Shown here in pieces: positions 4,581 through 27,091 of a stretch of DNA of 32,056 nt. Position 1 is the stretch's first letter; each line of letters begins with the position of its first letter. The DNA is from a virus. Position numbers and translations under genes: made by a program. Location: positions 1-32,056 of the IMG/VR virus record IMGVR_UViG_3300025887_000094, one strand, 5' to 3'. The notes under the pieces are model-generated. The model was not told the origin of the DNA. It saw only the letters and a program-made list of their open reading frames with translations, and made no database searches.

Positions 4581-5246
4581 TTAGACCCTCAAGTATTGGA
4601 AGCTAGGCTGTAACTTTAACGGAACTCGGTCTTCATCCTCATCAGACGCTCGTTGGAACTCCTCCTCATAGACAGTCTTTAGCATTTGAATACGATCTGG
4701 CGTTCTCTTCATTGCAATGTAATACGCCAAGCCAGCTACCATACAAGGATAAAACCTAAACGGCATGTCCGTTGTATTAACCAGCGTATCTGCATCATCA
4801 ATGCGACGAACATAATGGTAAACCAGTTGATCTGTAGAGTTTTCAGGTGTTGCCCAAAGATTTAAGATAGGCGTAATCTGACGATCAAAATAAAACTGGC
4901 TGGGCCGACCCTGAGTAGTCTTGTCAGGAAGAGTGACATATTCCCCACGACTAATTCTTGTAATCTCAAAGTCTGTTCCATCTCGGCGCAACACAATCTC
5001 TAGGACATCAACAACATCCGCGGCCAACGTTACTGCGCTAGTCCCTTGCGTTAAAGTTACCGTTTCCGATTTAACCGTCCACATGTTAATCCCTCTGTTC
5101 GCCCAATCAGCGAACATAAGGTTTAACGATCTACGAGCGGTACGAGCATCATACCCAGTGCGAACTTCAATCCCGCAGCGTTCATATGCTTCTTCGATAA
5201 CCTCACCGACATCGAGGTTGAAGTCCCTGGATCCTGATACTGTCAT
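4581..5246 (-). CDS. Head-tail connector / adaptor-like protein (221 aa)
   Basis: 221 residues. N-terminal helices (VGEVIEEAYERCGIEVRTGY, ARTARRSLNLMFADWANRGI) followed by beta segments (TVTLTQGTSAVTLAADVVDV, EYVTLPDKTTQGRPSQFYFD) and a C-terminal helical part (FYPCMVAGLAYYIAMKRTPD). This two-helix start plus LN.ML..W...G and the GRPS.F..DRQ motif is shared with P22 gp4-like and T7 gp11-like connector proteins that sit under the portal. Together with the 284-aa adaptor it probably forms stacked rings. Start ATG 5246 is four bases from the preceding stop. Family is moderately sure; which ring it forms cannot be told from sequence. Confidence 0.7.
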   Translation of the reverse strand: MTVSGSRDFNLDVGEVIEEAYERCGIEVRTGYDARTARRSLNLMFADWANRGINMWTVKSETVTLTQGTSAVTLAADVVDVLEIVLRRDGTDFEITRISRGEYVTLPDKTTQGRPSQFYFDRQITPILNLWATPENSTDQLVYHYVRRIDDADTLVNTTDMPFRFYPCMVAGLAYYIAMKRTPDRIQMLKTVYEEEFQRASDEDEDRVPLKLQPSFQYLRV

Positions 5247-5250
5247 GGCC

Positions 5251-5538
5251 TTAACTCATATGTGGTTTCTGGTTGGTCTTAACCATCACTGCGCCGCCAT
5301 TTCTAAAGCCCTGAACCTTACCGCCCATTGCCATGCCTTTAGTGTTGACCTTGCCGCCCATTGCCATGCCCTTAGACTTAACTCGGCCACCCATAGCGTA
5401 ACCTTTGGACTTTACCTTGCCGCCCATTGCCATACCCTTGGCTTTGACCTTGCCACCGTTTTTCATGTAGCCCATTTTGTTACGAACCGCTGTAGGCAGT
5501 TTTTTCAAACCGGCTTGATCATCTGTAGGTTTTTTCAT
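5251..5538 (-). CDS. Basic Gly/Lys tandem-repeat protein (95 aa)
   Basis: 95 residues with a clear AGGAG ribosome site seven bases before ATG 5538. After a ~27-residue head (KKPTDDQAGLKKLPTAVRNK) comes a run of 11-residue repeats of form GGKVKSKGMAM, four full copies and one partial (residues 28-80), then GGAVMVKTNQKPHMS. Very basic, rich in Gly, Lys and Met, almost no acidic residues. Similar GGKV-type low-complexity proteins occur in marine phages without a known function. Sits in a cluster of basic proteins (5251-6629), so DNA contact or condensation inside the head is a reasonable guess, not shown. Confidence 0.7.
   Translation of the reverse strand: MKKPTDDQAGLKKLPTAVRNKMGYMKNGGKVKAKGMAMGGKVKSKGYAMGGRVKSKGMAMGGKVNTKGMAMGGKVQGFRNGGAVMVKTNQKPHMS
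5326..5457 (-). repeat. 33-bp coding tandem repeats
   Basis: Four 33-bp units plus a partial fifth encode GGKVKAKGMAM, GGKVKSKGYAM, GGRVKSKGMAM, GGKVNTKGMAM and GGKVQGFRN. On the plus strand the shared block TTGCCGCCCATTGCCAT recurs. The copies are close enough for slippage or recombination, so copy number may vary between related phages. Confidence 0.85.
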
Positions 5539-5550
5539 ATCCGTACTCCT

Positions 5551-5928
5551 TTAAAACTGACGCACCACGCCCTTGGTGCTTTTGCGCCTGTCGGCCATTA
5601 CCGCTCCGCAGCCTTTCGCGACCGCTTCGCCTTTTTTGCTTTTGCCTTGGTACGGCCTTTTTGCTCCGTTGACTTCTCCGCCGAGTCGGTATCCTTTGAC
5701 CTTGGCTTTTTTGGTGTTGCTGACAACGGTTTTTCCTTTTCTGCCAGCCGCCTTTTTTTTCTTTGCAGTATCAGATCTATCTTTTTTAGAAAGAGAACGT
5801 GCTTTAGCCAGCGGAAGGCATCGGTCAGGGTTCTTCTTGTCTTTTGAAGTACCGCACTCACCTTTAATCTTGCCATCGGTTCCTATCCTTACCCACTTCT
5901 GATCACGCCATTTCTTTAGCTCACCCAT
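5551..5928 (-). CDS. Basic conserved phage protein (DUF5872-like) with GCGAVM tail (125 aa)
   Basis: I start it at ATG 5928 (MGELKKWRDQKWVRIG), which overlaps the stop of the upstream gene as TAATG; the frame extends further upstream but only as overlap. Residues 1-75 (WRDQKWVRIG, GKIKGECGTSKDKKNPDRCL, PLAKARSLSKKDRSDTAKKK) fit a small conserved phage domain I know as DUF5872-like. It is followed by a Lys-rich linker and a C-terminal GYRLGGEVNGAKRPYQGKSK then KGCGAVMADRRKSTK, a motif that in other marine phages forms a separate short protein. Two Cys (CGT, RCLP) near the N-terminus and one in GCG. Strongly basic; function unknown, nucleic-acid binding is plausible. Confidence 0.7.
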   Translation of the reverse strand: MGELKKWRDQKWVRIGTDGKIKGECGTSKDKKNPDRCLPLAKARSLSKKDRSDTAKKKKAAGRKGKTVVSNTKKAKVKGYRLGGEVNGAKRPYQGKSKKGEAVAKGCGAVMADRRKSTKGVVRQF

Positions 5929-6188
5929 TACGCTCTCTTCTTCTTTTTGCCCTTTGCGCCTTTTGCATAGTTTGGGTCTTTGCAATACTTAGATGCAGCC
6001 ATGTTCGCATAAGCAGAGGGATATGTATCAAAGGTGCGCTGGGCCCAAGCCTTACCCTTTGGGCAAATTTTACTGCCTTTTGATTTAGCAGAAACACCGC
6101 CACCATTCTTGTAGTATACAAGACCCTTCGGTGTTTTACCGGGTGGCTTTGACACTTGCTGTTTCATCTGCCCTCGGGACATAGCCAT
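5928..6188 (-). CDS. Basic conserved phage protein (86 aa)
   Basis: Start chosen at ATG 6188 because GGAG lies seven bases upstream; a GTG two codons earlier (6194) is too close to that site. Sequence: MAMSRGQMKQQVSKPPGKTP, then LVYYKNGGGVSAKSKGSKIC, PKGKAWAQRTFDTYPSAYAN and MAASKYCKDPNYAKGAKGKK. The KICPKGKAWA.RTFD.YPSAYANMAASKYCKDP block is strongly conserved in cyanophage and other marine phage genomes but has no known role. Two Cys in the conserved block, 20+ basic residues, no membrane segment. Its 5' end overlaps the C-terminus of the membrane protein gene by 53 bases. Confidence 0.7.
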   Translation of the reverse strand: MAMSRGQMKQQVSKPPGKTPKGLVYYKNGGGVSAKSKGSKICPKGKAWAQRTFDTYPSAYANMAASKYCKDPNYAKGAKGKKKKRA

Positions 6189-6360
6189 AATCACGCTCCA
6201 TGTACAACTTTATGTACGATATCTCTGATGCAATAACTTCCGTTTTTTTATCTACAGAAATTAAAGTATTAGTTGCCCAACTTGCCCAGCTATAGGTAAC
6301 CGCGCCAACGCCGCCAATAAAAGCAGTAGCCACGATAACTATGAACTGCTTACCTAACAT
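6136..6360 (-). CDS. Small single-pass membrane protein (74 aa)
   Basis: Start set at ATG 6360 (MLGKQFIVIVATAFIGGVGA) with AAGGAAG eight bases upstream; it overlaps the previous stop by seven bases. The longer frame upstream merely shadows the basic gene at 6354-6629. One hydrophobic segment at residues ~5-27 with a short basic N-terminus, then VDKKTEVIASEISYIKLYME, suggesting an amphipathic helix, and a soluble tail ending KATR. It overlaps the next gene (6188) by 53 bases in a different frame, which is long for this operon. Could be an extra holin-like or virion membrane protein; no family recognised. Confidence 0.55.
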   Translation of the reverse strand: MLGKQFIVIVATAFIGGVGAVTYSWASWATNTLISVDKKTEVIASEISYIKLYMERDYGYVPRADETASVKATR

Positions 6361-6629
6361 TTCCAACGCTTCCTTGCTTGACGAAGCCTGCTGTTTGGAT
6401 CTTTTGCAGCCTTCGGAAACTTCTTCATCTGTCCCGCAGAACGAGCGCAATAAGACTTGCGCCTCTTCGCGTCCTTACTGCCCTTCTTAACCTTGCCGGT
6501 AACCGCGGTCTTTAACTTAGAACCAGGGTTGGCTCTTCGATGAGCCTTTACACCATCCTCAGTCATTCCCGCCCCAGACTTAGTGGGGCGGTAATTCTTT
6601 TTTGTGCGCCTGATCGGTTTATCACCCAT
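6354..6629 (-). CDS. Very basic conserved phage protein, DUF6321-like (91 aa)
   Basis: 91 residues with about one third Lys or Arg. Core MTEDGVKAHRRANPGSKLKT, AVTGKVKKGSKDAKRRKSYC, ARSAGQMKKFPKAAKDPNSR, LRQARKRWKC. This matches a small conserved phage family I associate with DUF6321, found from cyanophages to other marine phages. The KRRKSYCAR and terminal KRWKC parts carry the only cysteines. Function is unknown; charge and small size suggest DNA or RNA contact. Followed by an overlapping membrane protein and two more basic proteins in the same operon. Confidence 0.75.
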   Translation of the reverse strand: MGDKPIRRTKKNYRPTKSGAGMTEDGVKAHRRANPGSKLKTAVTGKVKKGSKDAKRRKSYCARSAGQMKKFPKAAKDPNSRLRQARKRWKC

Positions 6630-7739: not shown

Positions 7740-8645
7740 TTATACGCCAGGAGAACCAAAAACGCAACGAGGATCTGAGAACCCAAACGAGTAACGCTCA
7801 CGGGCTTTAAACCGCATGTTACCAGTGTCAAAGTCCGCTTCCATGTTGGTTGAAAGAGGCGTCCGCTCAAAGTGAATGAACCCGCGAGGAGCATCGGTCA
7901 AAACAAAAAACGCATCTGGATCTGTCAAAAAGTCGTTGACGGCGTAACCACCGGGCAACATTCCCATAGACTTCACTGCGTTTATATCGTTGTCCGAAGT
8001 GCCTACCCGAAGTTCAGTGTTGAGTATCCGTTGAGCTACAAACTGTAGCTGGCGCGGAATAATCATCTTCACACCACGAAGAGCAACCTTCAGGCCACGC
8101 TCATCAACGAAGCCAGCGATGTTGATAAGAGCGTCCTCAAGAGAGGTTTCGTTCAAATCAGCGGCTGACACGTTGTCGAGAGTTCCACCGTTAGTCAGTG
8201 GGTGGTTGGATGCACAAAGAGCAACCCCGTCACCACCTGCCGAAGCACCCGCAGTAAACGCATTGTTAAGAACCGCAGCGGCCTTAACTTGTTTACTGTG
8301 AGCCATCGAACGAGCAAGGGCTTTGGTATAGCGTGATCCAAGACGATCATAGAGATTGTCCTCAATTGCTTCTTCCGTAATCGAGAAGGCCAACGCCAGC
8401 GTTTCATGATTATAACGAGCGGTGTACGCTTCGTTAGCATCATCGTAACTTATGTTACTTCCCTCTGCCTTAGTGGGCGCAGCGCCAAATCCACTGAGCA
8501 TCACCTCTTCCTCGAACGCTCTGTCCGAAGATTCGGTTGTGTAGATTTCTGCGTGTTGACCCTCGTACCGGTCGTATTCCATTCCAAACAGTGCGTTTAG
8601 GCCGGGTTCTAGCTCTTTCGCTAGTTGTGCGCGAGAAATAGCCAT
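7740..8645 (-). CDS. Major capsid protein
   Basis: 301 residues, in the size range for HK97-fold capsid proteins without a delta domain. Features: N-terminal helix ISRAQLAKELEPGLNALFGM, then YTTESSDRAFEEEVMLSGFG and ALAFSITEEAIEDNLYDRLG (E-loop/spine region), AVLNNAFTAGASAGGDGVAL followed by CASNHPLTNGGTLDN (P-domain-like), and a C-terminal part MRFKARERYSFGFSDPRCVF typical of the A-domain end. The region SNHPLTNG..DN and the YSFG.SDPR end are known from marine phage capsids. Scaffold and two accessory head genes lie directly upstream; a terminator follows. Assembly needs scaffold and possibly the GroES-like protein of this operon. Confidence 0.88.
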   Translation of the reverse strand: MAISRAQLAKELEPGLNALFGMEYDRYEGQHAEIYTTESSDRAFEEEVMLSGFGAAPTKAEGSNISYDDANEAYTARYNHETLALAFSITEEAIEDNLYDRLGSRYTKALARSMAHSKQVKAAAVLNNAFTAGASAGGDGVALCASNHPLTNGGTLDNVSAADLNETSLEDALINIAGFVDERGLKVALRGVKMIIPRQLQFVAQRILNTELRVGTSDNDINAVKSMGMLPGGYAVNDFLTDPDAFFVLTDAPRGFIHFERTPLSTNMEADFDTGNMRFKARERYSFGFSDPRCVFGSPGV

Positions 8646-9783: not shown

Positions 9784-10674
9784 CTAATCCTTCACAAATT
9801 TTGCGTATTCAGCGAGAGGGACGTTAAGTTTCTTCGCCATAATAACTTGCCTCTGGGTCAGCCTGACCGACTTAGTACGCTTCTGGTTAGTGTTACGAGA
9901 GGCTGAGGATGCAGCAGAAGCGACCTGGGCACCCCCTCCCGATTTCTTAACGGCAAACTTATTTGGAAACTCCGAACGCATCCGCCTATCTACCTCTGTA
10001 TAGTAGTCATCGGACGTTGGGTCAAACCCTTCTTGAGTAACCATCCTATTGTGGATAGCAAACACAGACGCCGTCATTACGTCATCGTCACCAAACCAAG
10101 TGTTTTTCTTAGCCCAAGCATCTGCTTTAGGGTCTACTTGTGGTGCCTGTTGTTGTTGAGGAGCGGCCGGCTGTTGAACAGGTTGTTGCGCCTGTTGTTC
10201 TACCCGCTGTTTAGCAGCGGCAAAGCGGCTTTCATCGTATTGAGCCCTGTTTAAAGCCTTTTGCGCGGCCAACATTGCTTCAGTATCGCCCTCGTCCGCG
10301 GCTTGAAGATATGCTTTCTCCGCTGCGGAAGTCTCAGACTGAACACGATTTCCGTACTCATTGAGATACCCAGTATCTAATTGTTGAACTCTTGCCTGAA
10401 GCTGCCTGTTTTGCTCTGCTAGCTTTTCCGCAACCTTAGTCGCTTCTTCTCGGCTAACCTGTTCATCACGATACCGCTGGTTAAGTTGGCGTATGCGTTT
10501 CTGCACACCCTTACTATACTCATCCAGTTCCTCCGGATCTTCCGCTACAGGTTCAGGAACAATTTCAACTTCGGGCTCTGGTTCAGAAGAGGCCTTCGCT
10601 TCTTTAGGCTCCTCTTCTTGACCCTCAATCTCAACTTCAATTTCTTCTTCTACCTCGTTAGACATGTCTGACAT
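9784..10674 (-). CDS. Scaffold / head-assembly protein
   Basis: 296 residues from ATG 10674, chosen because GGAG lies seven bases upstream; ATGs at 10677 and 10665 are alternatives. Composition fits a scaffold: an acidic N-terminal third (NEVEEEIEVEIEGQEEEPKE), a helical coiled-coil stretch (residues ~60-125: GVQKRIRQLNQRYRDEQVSR, EEATKVAEKLAEQNRQLQAR), a Gln/Pro/Ala linker, and a basic C-terminus (NQKRTKSVRLTQRQVIMAKK) of the kind that binds the capsid inner surface. Overlaps the GroES-like gene by 17 bases and lies four genes before the capsid. It would guide procapsid assembly and leave before packaging. No protease motif is seen. Confidence 0.78.
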   Translation of the reverse strand: MSDMSNEVEEEIEVEIEGQEEEPKEAKASSEPEPEVEIVPEPVAEDPEELDEYSKGVQKRIRQLNQRYRDEQVSREEATKVAEKLAEQNRQLQARVQQLDTGYLNEYGNRVQSETSAAEKAYLQAADEGDTEAMLAAQKALNRAQYDESRFAAAKQRVEQQAQQPVQQPAAPQQQQAPQVDPKADAWAKKNTWFGDDDVMTASVFAIHNRMVTQEGFDPTSDDYYTEVDRRMRSEFPNKFAVKKSGGGAQVASAASSASRNTNQKRTKSVRLTQRQVIMAKKLNVPLAEYAKFVKD

Positions 10675-11125
10675 CATCTGGCTCCAACAATGTTGCAATT
10701 ACTTCATCGTCATTAAGAATACGAACTTCTCCACCCTCAATCTTAAATCGAGATCCGGAGTATCTGCCGATGCAAACCCATTGGCCTTCTTTACACCAAG
10801 GTGTGCCTTCAAACTTGTCTTGATCCTTATATGCCAAAGGGCCCAACTTGAGAACATATGCCACAACAGTAGCAACAGTTTCTCTTTCCCGAACCTCGTC
10901 CGGTATATGCAGGCCAGAAGCTGTCTTTGATTTTCCTTGATATGGCATGACCAAAACCCGCCATCCGGTAGGTTGTGGTAATCTTTCCATCAAGGTCTTG
11001 TCCAGAAGGGAAGGGTCTAACACCCGAGCTTCTGGGGGAACATACGCTGTTTCGGAAACATCTTTAGATCGATTGTCCTTAACTTTTTTAGCTACATGTT
11101 CAGGAAGAAATAATGTCTTCGACAT
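10658..11125 (-). CDS. GroES-like co-chaperonin
   Basis: 155 residues. From about residue 50 the sequence follows the Cpn10 barrel: TGWRVLVMPYQGKSKTASGL, HIPDEVRERETVATVVAYVL, KLGPLAYKDQDKFEGTPWCK, EGQWVCIGRYSGSRFKIEGG, EVRILNDDEVIATL. Residues ~64-78 (GKSKTASGLHIPDEV) occupy the mobile-loop position, with LHI where GroES has IVL, the tripeptide that contacts GroEL. A ~50-residue N-terminal extension is not part of the fold. By analogy with T4 gp31 it may replace host GroES so that GroEL folds the capsid protein; its location next to scaffold and capsid supports this. Overlaps the 70-aa gene by 26 bases. Confidence 0.85.
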   Translation of the reverse strand: MSKTLFLPEHVAKKVKDNRSKDVSETAYVPPEARVLDPSLLDKTLMERLPQPTGWRVLVMPYQGKSKTASGLHIPDEVRERETVATVVAYVLKLGPLAYKDQDKFEGTPWCKEGQWVCIGRYSGSRFKIEGGEVRILNDDEVIATLLEPDDVRHV

Positions 11126-14116: not shown

Positions 14117-16597
14117 TTACCCCCTACGAGCCATAGCTTGACGTTGAACGTCTATACGCTCCCGATTAACATCGTTCCTGTTTTGAGCAATCTCTTCAGT
14201 GCTTTCAATCCGAGCGGCATCCGTAACAGCGCGTTGCTCCATCTTAGCAGACTCAAGCATAATCTGGGCCTCGTCCTCTTGAGCCTTACGCTGAAGCTCC
14301 TTGTCCTTGATCTCCACCTCTTTCATGCGGATCTGTACCAATGGATCCGACATAGGATCTTGACCCGGAGGCGTAATCTCATCCAGAGTGGCTTTCATAA
14401 TCTCTAGCTCTTGCGCCGCAACAGCCTTCTCCATCTCAGCAGGGTTCTGCATTTGCTGCTGTACTTCTTGGATTTGCATCTGCGCCGCCATAGGATCGAT
14501 CAAACCTTGTTGTACCTGTTGCTGTACCTTTTGAACCAACTCTTGGATCTCTTGAACGATACTCGCCCTCGCCTTCATTGAAATATGTTCTTGAAGGTGT
14601 GCGTAAAACGTACCCATAACTTGTGGAGAAGTCATAATTAAAGGCGTTCTCATAAACATAACGTGAATAGCTATGTGAGTATCGTGGTCCTGTTCCTCAA
14701 AGGCCACCAGTATTTCACCCATCAAACCACGGGCGTTCTCAATAGCAGGGTCCAACGGCTTGGGCTTTGGTGCCGGCGGTAGTATCTCATCAATGTTCTG
14801 TACTTCCAACGCCTGATACATACGCCGGTATGCCGCGTGTAAGTTATGCATCTGAGGATTAGATTGCGCCAACTGCAACTGCGTTTGAGCCAAAGTAACC
14901 CGCTGCGCCATCGAAAAGATGTTAGGGTCCGACACTGGTATAACATCTACCCGACCGTCAAAGTCCTGCGCCTTAATGCTTCTCTCGCCACCAGCTACAT
15001 CATACGGATATTCCTGATCCATATTCTCTGCACAGATACGAGCCAGAATACGGAACTCATTCTTCTGAGCATAATGCAACCGCTTGTGAATGGCCGACAT
15101 CACTTTCATGCCACGCTCAAGCATAGCAACAGTCGTACCAACGGGTGTCTCTTGGTTCATATTACTGGTCTGTTCGTCAGCCAGTGATACAAAGCGGCGT
15201 CCGCCCTCCACCAGAGCGCCTAGAAGCTGTGCTAGAGTGGCACTAGGCTCCTTGTACGGCAATGGTATAATAGAGTCCCTAATGTTGCCCCCAGGGGCAT
15301 CTATATCACGCCACTCTCCGGGCTGTAATGGCTCGTCATCGTTGCGTAACCGCACACCCCGAGCCTTAAATCCAGCCGGCAGGTTTGCCAAAGTACCCGC
15401 ATCAATCAACTGGCGCAGAATACTGGTCGCAGCGCGGCCCAACCCGCCAATCATATGGATCAAACCAAAGCCATAGAACCCAAGACCGGGCATAAATCGG
15501 TAGTGAACAAAGAACTGACGCTTCTTAGCGAAGTCTGTTTCAGCCTCAAAGTTCCTGCGTATCGCTAGAACCTTGCCAGAAGCCTCGTCCAAAGTAACAA
15601 TGTAAGGCAGATGAATACCCGTTGGCTCCCCATCAGGAGACATGTCCTCAAAGCCCTCAACGTCCAGATCGACATGCATCTCCAACAACGTGTAGATTTC
15701 GTCCTGATAGGTGCGGGATGTACCCTGTATCTCGTCAACCTTCTGCCGAACCTCGTCAGGCTCCGCGTCAGACGCCTGTAACTCAATGTCCTTGAAGAAC
15801 CCAGCAACCTGCATCTTGCGAACTTGGTTGTAATCCATACGCAAAACATGAGTAACCCTAGATGCCGACTGTAAATCAGCCGCAGCGTAAGGAACAACTA
15901 AGTCTTGAGCCGGCACAAAGGTCGAAACAGCCCTTTGCTTGGACTCGTCAAAGTAAACCTTCTTGAACGTAGATCCGGACATAGGGAGATAAAACAACAA
16001 CTGATCCATCTCAGGATCGTATTCCTCCATCACTTCCGTAATCTGGTAATTCAAGTAATCCTTAACGCGATTAGCCTGCGCCTCAACCTCAGCGTCCTGC
16101 TTACCCAAAATCTGCGTTTGAACAGGGCCACCCGCCGGCAGCAACTCTTTGTATGCTTGCGATTGAAACTGAGTTACCGACTCTACAATCAAAGGATGCG
16201 TAACGCCCGAGGCACCCTCAAAGGGTTGGGTGCGATCCTCTTGCTTAATGCCTAACTGGTCTAAACCCCTGGTATATGTCTCTTCCCAATCTGATCGAGA
16301 CTCCAAATCATCCTCGTAAGAAGCACGAAGCTCACTTGATAACTCGCCCAAGTACCCATCATCCAAATATTCCGCTAAATTAGCGTCATGTGGAATGTCC
16401 TCGGGTATCTCGTCCCCCATAGCCTCTTCCAGAAGCTCCTCAATAGTAACACTGCCATCTTCGTTAGGAATAATCTCCGCACCCATGGCAAAATCCATCG
16501 GCTCCGGAACATCAACTTCCGTTTGCTCCCCAGTTACATCAAGGGGCATCAAAGATGGATCAACAAGAGATCCCATGGGTCGAGGTGGCAGGGCCAT
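14117..16597 (-). CDS. Portal protein
   Basis: 826 residues, in the size range of P22-type portals. After a short disordered acidic head (~80 residues) come portal-like blocks: ESVTQFQSQAYKELLPAGGP, VQTQILGKQDAEVEAQANRV, LLFYLPMSGSTFKKVYFDES, FVPAQDLVVPYAAADLQSAS, YGFGLIHMIGGLGRAATSIL and QTSNMNQETPVGTTVAMLER. The C-terminal ~250 residues are Gln/Glu/Met-rich and helical (IQELVQKVQQQVQQGLIDPM), matching the barrel of long portals. The ring at the head vertex is where DNA passes and where the adaptors in this operon dock. Start ATG 16597 overlaps the TerL stop by one base, with GGAG nine bases upstream. Confidence 0.92.
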   Translation of the reverse strand: MALPPRPMGSLVDPSLMPLDVTGEQTEVDVPEPMDFAMGAEIIPNEDGSVTIEELLEEAMGDEIPEDIPHDANLAEYLDDGYLGELSSELRASYEDDLESRSDWEETYTRGLDQLGIKQEDRTQPFEGASGVTHPLIVESVTQFQSQAYKELLPAGGPVQTQILGKQDAEVEAQANRVKDYLNYQITEVMEEYDPEMDQLLFYLPMSGSTFKKVYFDESKQRAVSTFVPAQDLVVPYAAADLQSASRVTHVLRMDYNQVRKMQVAGFFKDIELQASDAEPDEVRQKVDEIQGTSRTYQDEIYTLLEMHVDLDVEGFEDMSPDGEPTGIHLPYIVTLDEASGKVLAIRRNFEAETDFAKKRQFFVHYRFMPGLGFYGFGLIHMIGGLGRAATSILRQLIDAGTLANLPAGFKARGVRLRNDDEPLQPGEWRDIDAPGGNIRDSIIPLPYKEPSATLAQLLGALVEGGRRFVSLADEQTSNMNQETPVGTTVAMLERGMKVMSAIHKRLHYAQKNEFRILARICAENMDQEYPYDVAGGERSIKAQDFDGRVDVIPVSDPNIFSMAQRVTLAQTQLQLAQSNPQMHNLHAAYRRMYQALEVQNIDEILPPAPKPKPLDPAIENARGLMGEILVAFEEQDHDTHIAIHVMFMRTPLIMTSPQVMGTFYAHLQEHISMKARASIVQEIQELVQKVQQQVQQGLIDPMAAQMQIQEVQQQMQNPAEMEKAVAAQELEIMKATLDEITPPGQDPMSDPLVQIRMKEVEIKDKELQRKAQEDEAQIMLESAKMEQRAVTDAARIESTEEIAQNRNDVNRERIDVQRQAMARRG

Positions 16598-24754: not shown

Positions 24755-24819
24755 GTGCCGAGTTGGGCGCCTACCCCGTGCCGGTGATCCGCGCAGGGCG
24801 CGGCCGGCCGGCCACCGCG

Positions 24820-24981
24820 AGGGCGCAGGGCGCAGAACATGATAGAGATCGACCTGCTAGCGGGGGCGCAGGATATGCAAGCGACCGACCGGCTAGCGGG
24901 GGCGCAGACATCTATAGATATATACCGGCTAGCGGGGGCGCAGACATATCGGCCGGCCGGCCGGCTAGCGGGGGCGCAGAC
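24820..24981. repeat. GC-rich repeat array with exact 36-bp period
   Basis: Core GCTAGCGGGGGCGCAG starts at 24856, 24892, 24928 and 24964, exactly 36 bases apart. Extended 21-base units lie at 24853, 24889, 24925 and 24961, with 15-base spacers; copy 1 differs at two to three positions. Just upstream is a degenerate double copy AGGGCGCAGGGCGCAGA (24820-24836). Two of three spacers are self-complementary (ATCTATAGAT; CGGCCGGCCGG). Because 36 is divisible by 3 one frame stays open and would read RPASGGAD every 12 residues, but its only start is a TTG without ribosome site. Confidence 0.9.
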
Positions 24982-25130
24982 CGGCGCCCCTGGAATCGCG
25001 GGGCTCGATGTATAGACCAGCCGGCACCCGTTTATTTTTGACTATATAGACCTACAAATATGTTGCCGCTGCGCGACCGATACTATAGACTAAACCTACG
25101 TTAACTAGAAACAGGAAAGGAATCCGACTC
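24982..25130. other. Leader region before the 232-aa gene
   Basis: 149 bases without a gene. TTGACT at 25038-25043 could be a -35, with TATGTT 15 bases on as a poor -10, so a promoter here is only possible. Since a terminator lies upstream at 24754, the 232-aa gene needs some promoter, and this is the only stretch available apart from the repeats. The 23 bases at 25097-25119 match the leader before 24476 at 21 positions. Confidence 0.4.
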
Positions 25131-26523: not shown

Positions 26524-26722
26524 AAGGCGCAGGGCGCAGACCGGTTGGCCGGCCACCTCGATCGGGGGCGCAGGGATCCGGAGAAGTTAACAAACATACC
26601 CCAAATGTTAACCAGCTAGCGGGGGCGCAGACATGCGGAGCCCGAACCCTGACGCGGGGGCGCAGAAACTAGGGCGCAGGGGCGCAGACACCTGCGTAAT
26701 GATTAAGCAAGCGGGGGCGCAG
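26524..26722. repeat. Second cluster of GC-rich GGGGGCGCAG repeats
   Basis: Copies of GGGGGCGCAG or shorter forms occur at 26524-26539 (double), 26564, 26615-26630 (full GCTAGCGGGGGCGCAG), 26656, 26671-26687 (double), and 26711. Spacing is irregular here. It opens with a double AGGCGCAGGGCGCAGA and a GGCCGGCCACC block, both also present at the head of the first array (24801-24836), so the two clusters share a common origin. The last copies overlap the 3' end of the nuclease gene (26669). Confidence 0.85.
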
Positions 26723-27091
26723 GGCCGTGAACACGGCACCAACGTCCCCGAAAACATGTCCAACCCCGCATTTCAACCCCTTTTCCATGAGGAATGGGCC
26801 TTGATCCCCCCCAAATAGATGCAAGGAACGGTCAGAGAGGCTCTTGACTAAGAAGAAACACGCGCCCCCTCGCGACCAATACTGCATATTCCACGCGACT
26901 TGATGAGATCGGAGATTGACTGCATTGCTTTTGCTTGTCTTCAATTCAATCCAGAAGGGTAATCCATCCCAGATTACATGCACATCGGGAACTCCCCCGC
27001 CATGTACGTTCTCAATCCGTGTCGCTGATGCCTTCGGAGGTAAGTTCTGCCTTATCGTGTTCCAAAAGTTCGCCTCTGGTCCCTTTGACAT
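26669..27091 (-). CDS. PDDEXK / VRR-NUC-type nuclease
   Basis: 140 residues. After a helix (SKGPEANFWNTIRQNLPPKA) come IENVHGGGVPDVHVIWDGLP and FWIELKTSKSNAVNLRSHQV: P35-D36 and E49-L50-K51 form the PD-(D/E)xK motif, with Q64 in the following helix, as in VRR-NUC and Holliday-junction-like phage nucleases. The catalytic set is complete. The start overlaps terS by 80 bases, an unusually long overlap in another frame. The last ~20 codons (ALRPRLLNHYAGVCAPAP) run into the GC-rich repeats, so the natural C-terminus may have been altered by repeat insertion. It may process packaged or recombination DNA; the function is inferred from the family. Confidence 0.8.
   Translation of the reverse strand: MSKGPEANFWNTIRQNLPPKASATRIENVHGGGVPDVHVIWDGLPFWIELKTSKSNAVNLRSHQVAWNMQYWSRGGACFFLVKSLSDRSLHLFGGDQGPFLMEKGLKCGVGHVFGDVGAVFTALRPRLLNHYAGVCAPAP

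Follow-up and report, generated by a model that had tools for sequence, protein, structure and literature searches.

We analysed a virus record of IMG/VR, IMGVR_UViG_3300025887_000094, over its complete 32,056 bases (hereafter the window), which may represent a fragment of the genome. On its minus strand, between the gene for the major capsid protein and that for an SU10-type adaptor protein, the window carries a cluster of small basic proteins, three of which share a short motif built around two glycines (aromatic-x-x-G-G-x-V, hereafter the GG tag). The tag lies outside the folded domains, in unfolded sequence, and is enriched among small basic proteins of related marine loci. The modules that make up the cluster proteins are found fused to one another in other phages. 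We suggest, with a confidence just short of even, that the cluster encodes small basic head-cargo proteins and that the GG tag docks them, a job like that of the targeting peptide of phage T4.

The cluster is transcribed in the order DUF6321 protein, small membrane protein, ORF3, ORF2 and ORF1 (ORF, open reading frame). ORF3 (5928..6188; 86 amino acids (aa), net charge +19) contains a module A at residues 39-79, with the GG tag YYKNGGGVSA (6087..6116) immediately N-terminal to it, and matched phrog_27331 (E = 9.5e-27) and a hidden Markov model (HMM) of module A (independent E-value, iE = 1.2e-24). ORF2 (5551..5928; 125 aa, net charge +28), whose start shares one base with the stop of ORF3 (TAATG), is composed of module B (residues 2-67), a linker with the tag GYRLGGEVNG (5665..5694) and a C-terminal GCGxVMxxRRKxT element; it matched phrog_23735 (E = 8e-26) and the module B HMM (iE = 4e-28). 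In its AlphaFold2 model (mean predicted local distance difference test, pLDDT, 64.6), residues 80-88 of the linker fall below 50. ORF1 (5251..5538; 95 aa, net charge +20) is a Lys/Gly-rich repeat protein with YMKNGGKV near the N-terminus (tag copy YMKNGGKVKA, 5440..5469), four [MY]AMGG[KR]V repeats, and GFRNGGAV near the C-terminus (tag copy GFRNGGAVMV, 5281..5310), and its motif repeats are encoded by two overlapping rows of 33-nt tandem repeats (5296..5454). Pfam and PHROGs scans of ORF1 gave no match at E <= 1, and an HMM built for this analysis found its relatives in 37 loci. The DUF6321 protein (6354..6629; 91 aa, net charge +26) corresponds to module C and is a member of Pfam PF19846, scoring 42.3 bits (cutoff 28.5; E = 1.2e-10).

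A preliminary description of this region had announced a dense basic run including four proteins with a common motif and a DUF6321-like protein. All four motifs are present, but they are distributed over three proteins, two copies being located in ORF1. ORF1, ORF2, ORF3 and the DUF6321 protein are indeed basic, but the DUF6321 protein is without the GG tag and the run is interrupted by a small predicted membrane protein (6136..6360; 74 aa, net charge about 0.5), which overlaps both of its neighbours and has relatives in 42 loci.

In the window, the strict pattern [YF][KR].GG.V was found in three of eight small basic proteins and in one of the 44 other genes, the terminase, where shuffling predicts 0.02 in each case. 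Across the first 150 related loci, 56 of 343 family proteins carried it, against 0.03 expected, and 17 of 1704 non-family proteins, against 0.6 expected. An independent set of 80 loci, for which the query had lacked the motif, contained it in 12 of 394 small basic proteins (0.12 expected); genes in the compared loci are greedy ORF calls rather than annotation, and the shuffles and Fisher tests ignore relatedness. Since related copies inflate such counts, proteins were clustered with the motif masked, which corrects for relatedness in part. The widened motif [YF]..GG.[VIAT], chosen like the size limits after inspection of the data, was then found in 33 of the 183 clusters, against 3.9 expected; in 27 of these, against 1.0 expected, at least half of the members had it. 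After masking of all GG contexts, this motif occurred in 53 of the 214 clusters of small basic proteins from related marine loci, compared with 2 clusters for the reversed form. With Ar and Al standing for the aromatic and the V/I/A/T position, the shifted controls gave 2 (Ar.GG.Al), 8 (Ar..GG..Al), 2 (ArGG.Al) and 20 (Ar...GG.Al), the last count partly reflecting a YY doublet. The motif was absent from T7, was found twice in 79 called genes of P22, near expectation, and was not enriched in a third set of loci, L239-L318 (strict pattern, 0 of 771). Therefore, the motif belongs to certain marine phages.

These controls bear on the idea that the motif merely results from a composition rich in Gly and Lys, or has spread between neighbouring genes by gene conversion. 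The repeats of ORF1 are indeed DNA tandem repeats, as such an origin would have it. However, the shuffled and register controls contradict it, and any two of the four window copies agree at only 11-17 of their 30 bases, so that they are not recent DNA duplicates. We regard this explanation, already disfavoured, as scarcely credible.

Among distinct ORF3 relatives, taken from loci in whose retrieval the motif played no part, 53 of 54 have [YFM][KR].GG.[AVI] right before the folded module and behind a variable N-terminus; the other set is biased, as KNGGGVSA was its search pattern. Of 115 distinct ORF2 relatives, at least 109 have a GG motif in the linker that follows the module, with L, M or A mostly replacing the aromatic residue; the linker pattern failed in six and missed at least one true case (L146). 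A conserved C-terminal element, [RK]GCGx[VI]xxxRRK, is present in 105 of the 115 distinct ORF2 relatives (window 5551-5650) and is possibly a second tag. In ORF1-type proteins the GG tag is repeated, with a copy number that differs between loci. The C-terminus of ORF1 (window 5251-5290) contains a stretch, GGAVMVKTNQKPHMS, that also occurs in separate short proteins (L042, L054 and L063), and ORF1-type proteins of other loci end in FKGxF in place of it. The tag is found in 133 of 209 free-standing A proteins of up to 200 aa and in one of 23 longer or fused ones. In the cultured pelagiphage HTVC023P, the DUF6321 protein gp43 has FKRGGDV ahead of its domain.

An alternative that we consider doubtful is that these proteins condense or neutralise packaged DNA, the two glycines being a flexible hinge between Lys-rich stretches that needs no protein partner. 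Net charges between +19 and +28 at a length of 86-125 aa make DNA condensation by the cluster proteins plausible, and ORF1-type proteins consist of Lys-rich tandem repeats with locus-dependent copy number; by charge and repeats, the window proteins might be likened to bacterial histone-like Lys-rich DNA condensers. A hinge, however, would not need an aromatic residue or Met at position -3 (aromatic in 18% against 6% in the background) or V/I/A at +3 (57% against 18%). Likewise, Y at position -4 is invariant in 100 of 100 ORF3 relatives, which were selected for having the motif, while the positions 8 to 20 residues ahead of the glycines vary.

Modules A, B and C were also found fused in other phages. 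HMM searches detected B+A in 12 ORFs, A+C in six, A+B in one and B+A+C in one (P-TIM68), these counts including near-identical contigs. The Pfam family DUF5872 (PF19197) corresponds to A+B, its parts being matched in order by A-type and B-type modules. An A module (L307) matched the first third, at 1-39 or 3-39, with 36.1 bits (cutoff 27.5), a B module (L303) the second half, 53-112, with 25.0 bits, just under the cutoff, and an A+B protein (L160) spanned positions 6-109 with 20.7 bits, also under it. Window ORF3 and ORF2 gave no match to the DUF5872 model at E <= 1. As their link to this family runs through homologs only, we do not count them as members. What DUF5872 joins is thus encoded in the window as two genes. 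Similarly, DUF6321 is free-standing in the window, while larger proteins of the T4-like cyanophages inspected have it as their C-terminal domain. DUF6321 matches were present in 295 of 50,697 phage records. In the T7-like phage P-SCSP1a (11364-11618; L151), the gene for an 84-aa DUF6321 protein lies between those for the capsid and gp11, and in T7-like cyanophages a 58-aa Lys-rich protein comes after the 84-aa DUF6321 protein. In locus L264 (365-2917), an 851-aa protein combines a B-type module with a cytidyltransferase domain. The virions of both S-CREM2 (PMC10665884) and S-SZBM1 (PMC9146016) include cytidyltransferases; here and below, what is said of a cited paper refers to the accessible part of its text.

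The slot before ORF3 was occupied by DUF6321 in 72 of 94 dereplicated loci and by a second family, RYW, in 17, with both in none and neither in five. RYW is a small basic Cys family (RRKxFRARHNCD...ARYWSC), found for example in L125 (5692-5979), L110 and L106. A further small basic family (KVGTGKKPKGSGRRLYTDENP...) stands beside ORF3/ORF2 in 37 loci, including L133 (5663-5959). A common origin of A, B, C and RYW was unsupported by hhalign, the best pair, DUF6321-RYW, reaching E = 0.019 with 2.4% probability. ORF2 and ORF3 gave E = 0.41, so that the modules do not seem to be homologous, and a MAFFT superposition of modules A and B was treated as an alignment artefact. The AlphaFold2 model of the DUF6321 protein predicts four helices (mean pLDDT 87.7, predicted template modelling score 0.67). 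Against BFVD this model matched almost exclusively DUF6321 proteins; that of ORF2 gave one unnamed match at E <= 0.001, and DUF6321/DUF5872 proteins appeared only at E 0.3 to 0.8. The PDB was also searched by sequence, the queries being ORF2, DUF6321, a DUF6321 profile and the capsid protein, and this yielded nothing useful.

Larger phages may address the same modules in a different way. SSZBM1_192, the DUF6321 protein of cyanophage S-SZBM1, starts with MKTFKQYITEA, while the T4 internal proteins start with MKTYQEFIAEA (IPII and IPIII) and MKTFKEFTST (IPI). It is known that ten such N-terminal residues direct IPIII into the T4 head (PMC9026906). Module proteins of large phages have similar starts, such as MKTFQEFINED and MKTFKQYLNEN. 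A pattern for this capsid-targeting start (CTS), written after the N-termini had been seen, matched, in L239-L318, 12 of the 25 long module proteins and 5 of the 61 short ones, compared with 5 of 581 other genes. In loci resembling the window (window-like loci), it matched none of the 309 module proteins and none of the 2052 other genes, nor is it found in the window proteins. When all module proteins are considered, the GG tag is present in 137 of 317 from window-like loci and in 3 of 93 from L239-L318, and the CTS-like start in 0 of 317 and 15 of 93, respectively; the 15/93 count differs in dereplication from the 17/86 obtained with called genes. As controls, the pattern found only IPII and IPIII in 28 kb of T4 and missed IPI, and in 94 kb of S-SCSM1 it gave two matches, one of them ORF91, which is labelled as a virion protein. 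By their neighbouring genes L239-L318 come from large phages, but blastp with S-SZBM1 and S-SCSM1 proteins found no T4-like structural genes in the 80 loci, and we therefore call them large-phage rather than T4-like. Twenty proteins from seven CTS-bearing loci were compared with PHROGs and matched cytidyltransferase, endolysin, primase, reductase and virion structural families.

DUF6321 proteins were counted as virion proteins in two of three T4-like cyanophage proteomes checked. In S-CREM2, ORF137, of which DUF6321 is the C-terminal domain, was detected by mass spectrometry of purified virions, with 4 unique peptides and 4.1% coverage (PMC10665884). In S-SCSM1, ORF29 (517 aa) contains module B (64-134) and module C (448-517), with an A-like stretch between them that is seen by eye and was not reported by the A HMM. 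For this phage, 45 virion proteins were identified by mass spectrometry (PMC9602691). ORF29 was not found by name in the accessible part of that paper; its GenBank label is 'virion protein', which we took as detection because ORF91, named in the paper, carries the same label. The accessible part of the P-SSP7 paper yielded no virion proteome, that of the paper on HTVC027P transcript timing named no cluster gene, and that of the P-SCSP1u structure paper gave no relevant passage. In HTVC027P, modules C, B and A correspond to gp52, gp50 and gp49. The suggestion of the preliminary description that these are head proteins is therefore supported indirectly, through the DUF6321 homologs in virions and the location of the cluster between the capsid and adaptor genes.

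It might also be that the proteins work in the infected cell, as assembly helpers, packaging accessories or factors of host takeover, and are not parts of the virion. In P-HM2 and P-TIM68, the DUF6321 gene indeed sits between the small and large terminase genes, and SSZBM1_192 is missing from its list of virion proteins. We nevertheless consider a purely intracellular role unlikely, as DUF6321 proteins are found in the virions of S-CREM2 and S-SCSM1 and module proteins of large phages have targeting-like N-termini.

Under the head-cargo reading, modules A, B and C would be payloads for the phage head, and ORF1 a repetitive Lys/Gly protein. The basic proteins would probably be taken into the head ahead of DNA packaging or while it takes place, rest against the DNA, as their charge suggests, and perhaps exit with it. 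In the window and its kin, the free-standing A and B proteins and the ORF1 repeats bear a tag of the form aromatic or Met/Leu-x-x-G-G-x-V/I/A/T, which may dock the cargo to a common partner inside the head, such as the inner face of the capsid, a scaffold or the portal. Large phages would fuse the modules or supply a T4-like targeting start, and window-like phages would encode them separately with another tag. The preliminary description had offered both a docking and a processing tag. The former agrees with a register-specific motif that lies outside the folded modules and is complementary in distribution to the T4-like N-terminus on the same modules, though it names no partner. The latter, in which the GG motif would be a site of proteolytic processing of the prohead protease or double-glycine type, could draw on a short motif common to several proteins and placed outside their folded parts. 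However, ORF1 has six copies and would be fragmented by cleavage, and the position of the tag varies, being N-terminal to module A and C-terminal to module B. A Pfam scan of ten window proteins, in a record that may be fragmentary and so could lack one, detected no prohead protease, and the PHROGs 'head maturation protease' matched the capsid protein only. Processing is thus unsupported, and we hold it to be very improbable.

Several observations weigh against head-cargo proteins docked by a tag. Virion presence is known from cyanophage homologs and from no proteome of a window-like phage; the coverage of S-CREM2 ORF137 is low and the protein is acidic overall. SSZBM1_192, despite its targeting-like N-terminus, is absent from the 30 virion proteins listed in the accessible part of PMC9146016. 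The CTS pattern was drawn up in hindsight, and a CTS-like N-terminus is present in just one of six DUF6321 proteins of cultured T4-like cyanophages. Tag type is confounded with virus lineage, and because the two coincide the complementarity of GG tag and CTS could stem from lineage alone. Among the 51 DUF6321 proteins of window-like loci, just three bear the GG tag; because they usually carry neither tag, DUF6321 must reach the head otherwise, or our account is incomplete. Finally, a Foldseek search of PDB with the DUF6321 fold gave three matches, none at E <= 0.001, and no DNA-binding fold; when three chains were realigned, Z was 2.5 for the single one listed.

The cluster is bounded upstream by the major capsid protein gene (7740..8645, minus strand; PF25209, E = 6.7e-12; phrog_371, E = 1.7e-22) and downstream of ORF1 by the SU10-type adaptor gene (4581..5246, minus strand; PF24175, E = 1.9e-12). 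The order capsid, DUF6321, ORF3, ORF2, repeat ORF and adaptor recurs, with variations, in 12 loci inspected. The slot before the adaptor gene holds a short repeat protein in almost all loci inspected (L024, L038, L081, L133 and others), with units such as KKMRGGGMV, KGMKMGGKVKP or KKKGYAKGGAV, which differ in sequence and are alike in style. The window also has a scaffold gene (9784-10698) and a portal gene (14117-16597). The virion operon further contains a gene for a GroES-like co-chaperonin (window 10658-11125), which is likewise present in HTVC027P, HTVC023P and DSL-LC04. Elsewhere in the window, at 24763-25041 and 26608-26763, both strands have ORFs made up of a recurring LAGAQ/SGGAD/PPLAGRS unit, which points to a short, GC-rich repeat in the DNA.

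The T4 internal proteins IPI, IPII and IPIII offer the closest comparison, as several small proteins of one phage that have a common short peptide outside their main body. They are basic, present in many copies per head and ejected (PMC9026906). The window proteins are likewise small and basic with a shared short peptide, but lack the CTS pattern, and the GG tag, unlike the CTS, is not bound to the N-terminus and can be repeated; nor was a protease found among the ten window proteins scanned.

Encapsulins provide an analogy: short cargo-loading peptides on several cargo proteins dock them inside a shell of the HK97 fold. Unlike a phage head, encapsulin shells contain no packaged genome. In the literature, no paper treating DUF6321 was found, and DUF5872 appeared only as a table row. 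Searches for PSAYAS/PSAYAN gave no paper on phages by title, and those for pelagiphage with lysine-rich gave none; encapsidation tags in marine phages were not searched by name.

Short capsid-targeting tags are known from T4, and the GG tag, if it plays this part, would add a variant that differs from them, can be repeated and sits on the payloads that large phages also have. We put forward, more hesitantly than the head-cargo reading itself, the generalisation that marine phages without a T4-type peptide might have their own capsid-cargo address, aromatic-x-x-G-G-x-V, loading basic modules and a multivalent repeat protein, and that larger phages might load the same modules via a T4-like sequence or in fused form. 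DUF6321 and DUF5872, two viral families that are widespread but have no assigned function, would be head cargo if our reading is correct. In that case, a short sequence would predict which of the many uncharacterised small proteins of marine phages are carried in the virion, and the GG tag would be a possible cargo-loading tag for SAR11 phages.

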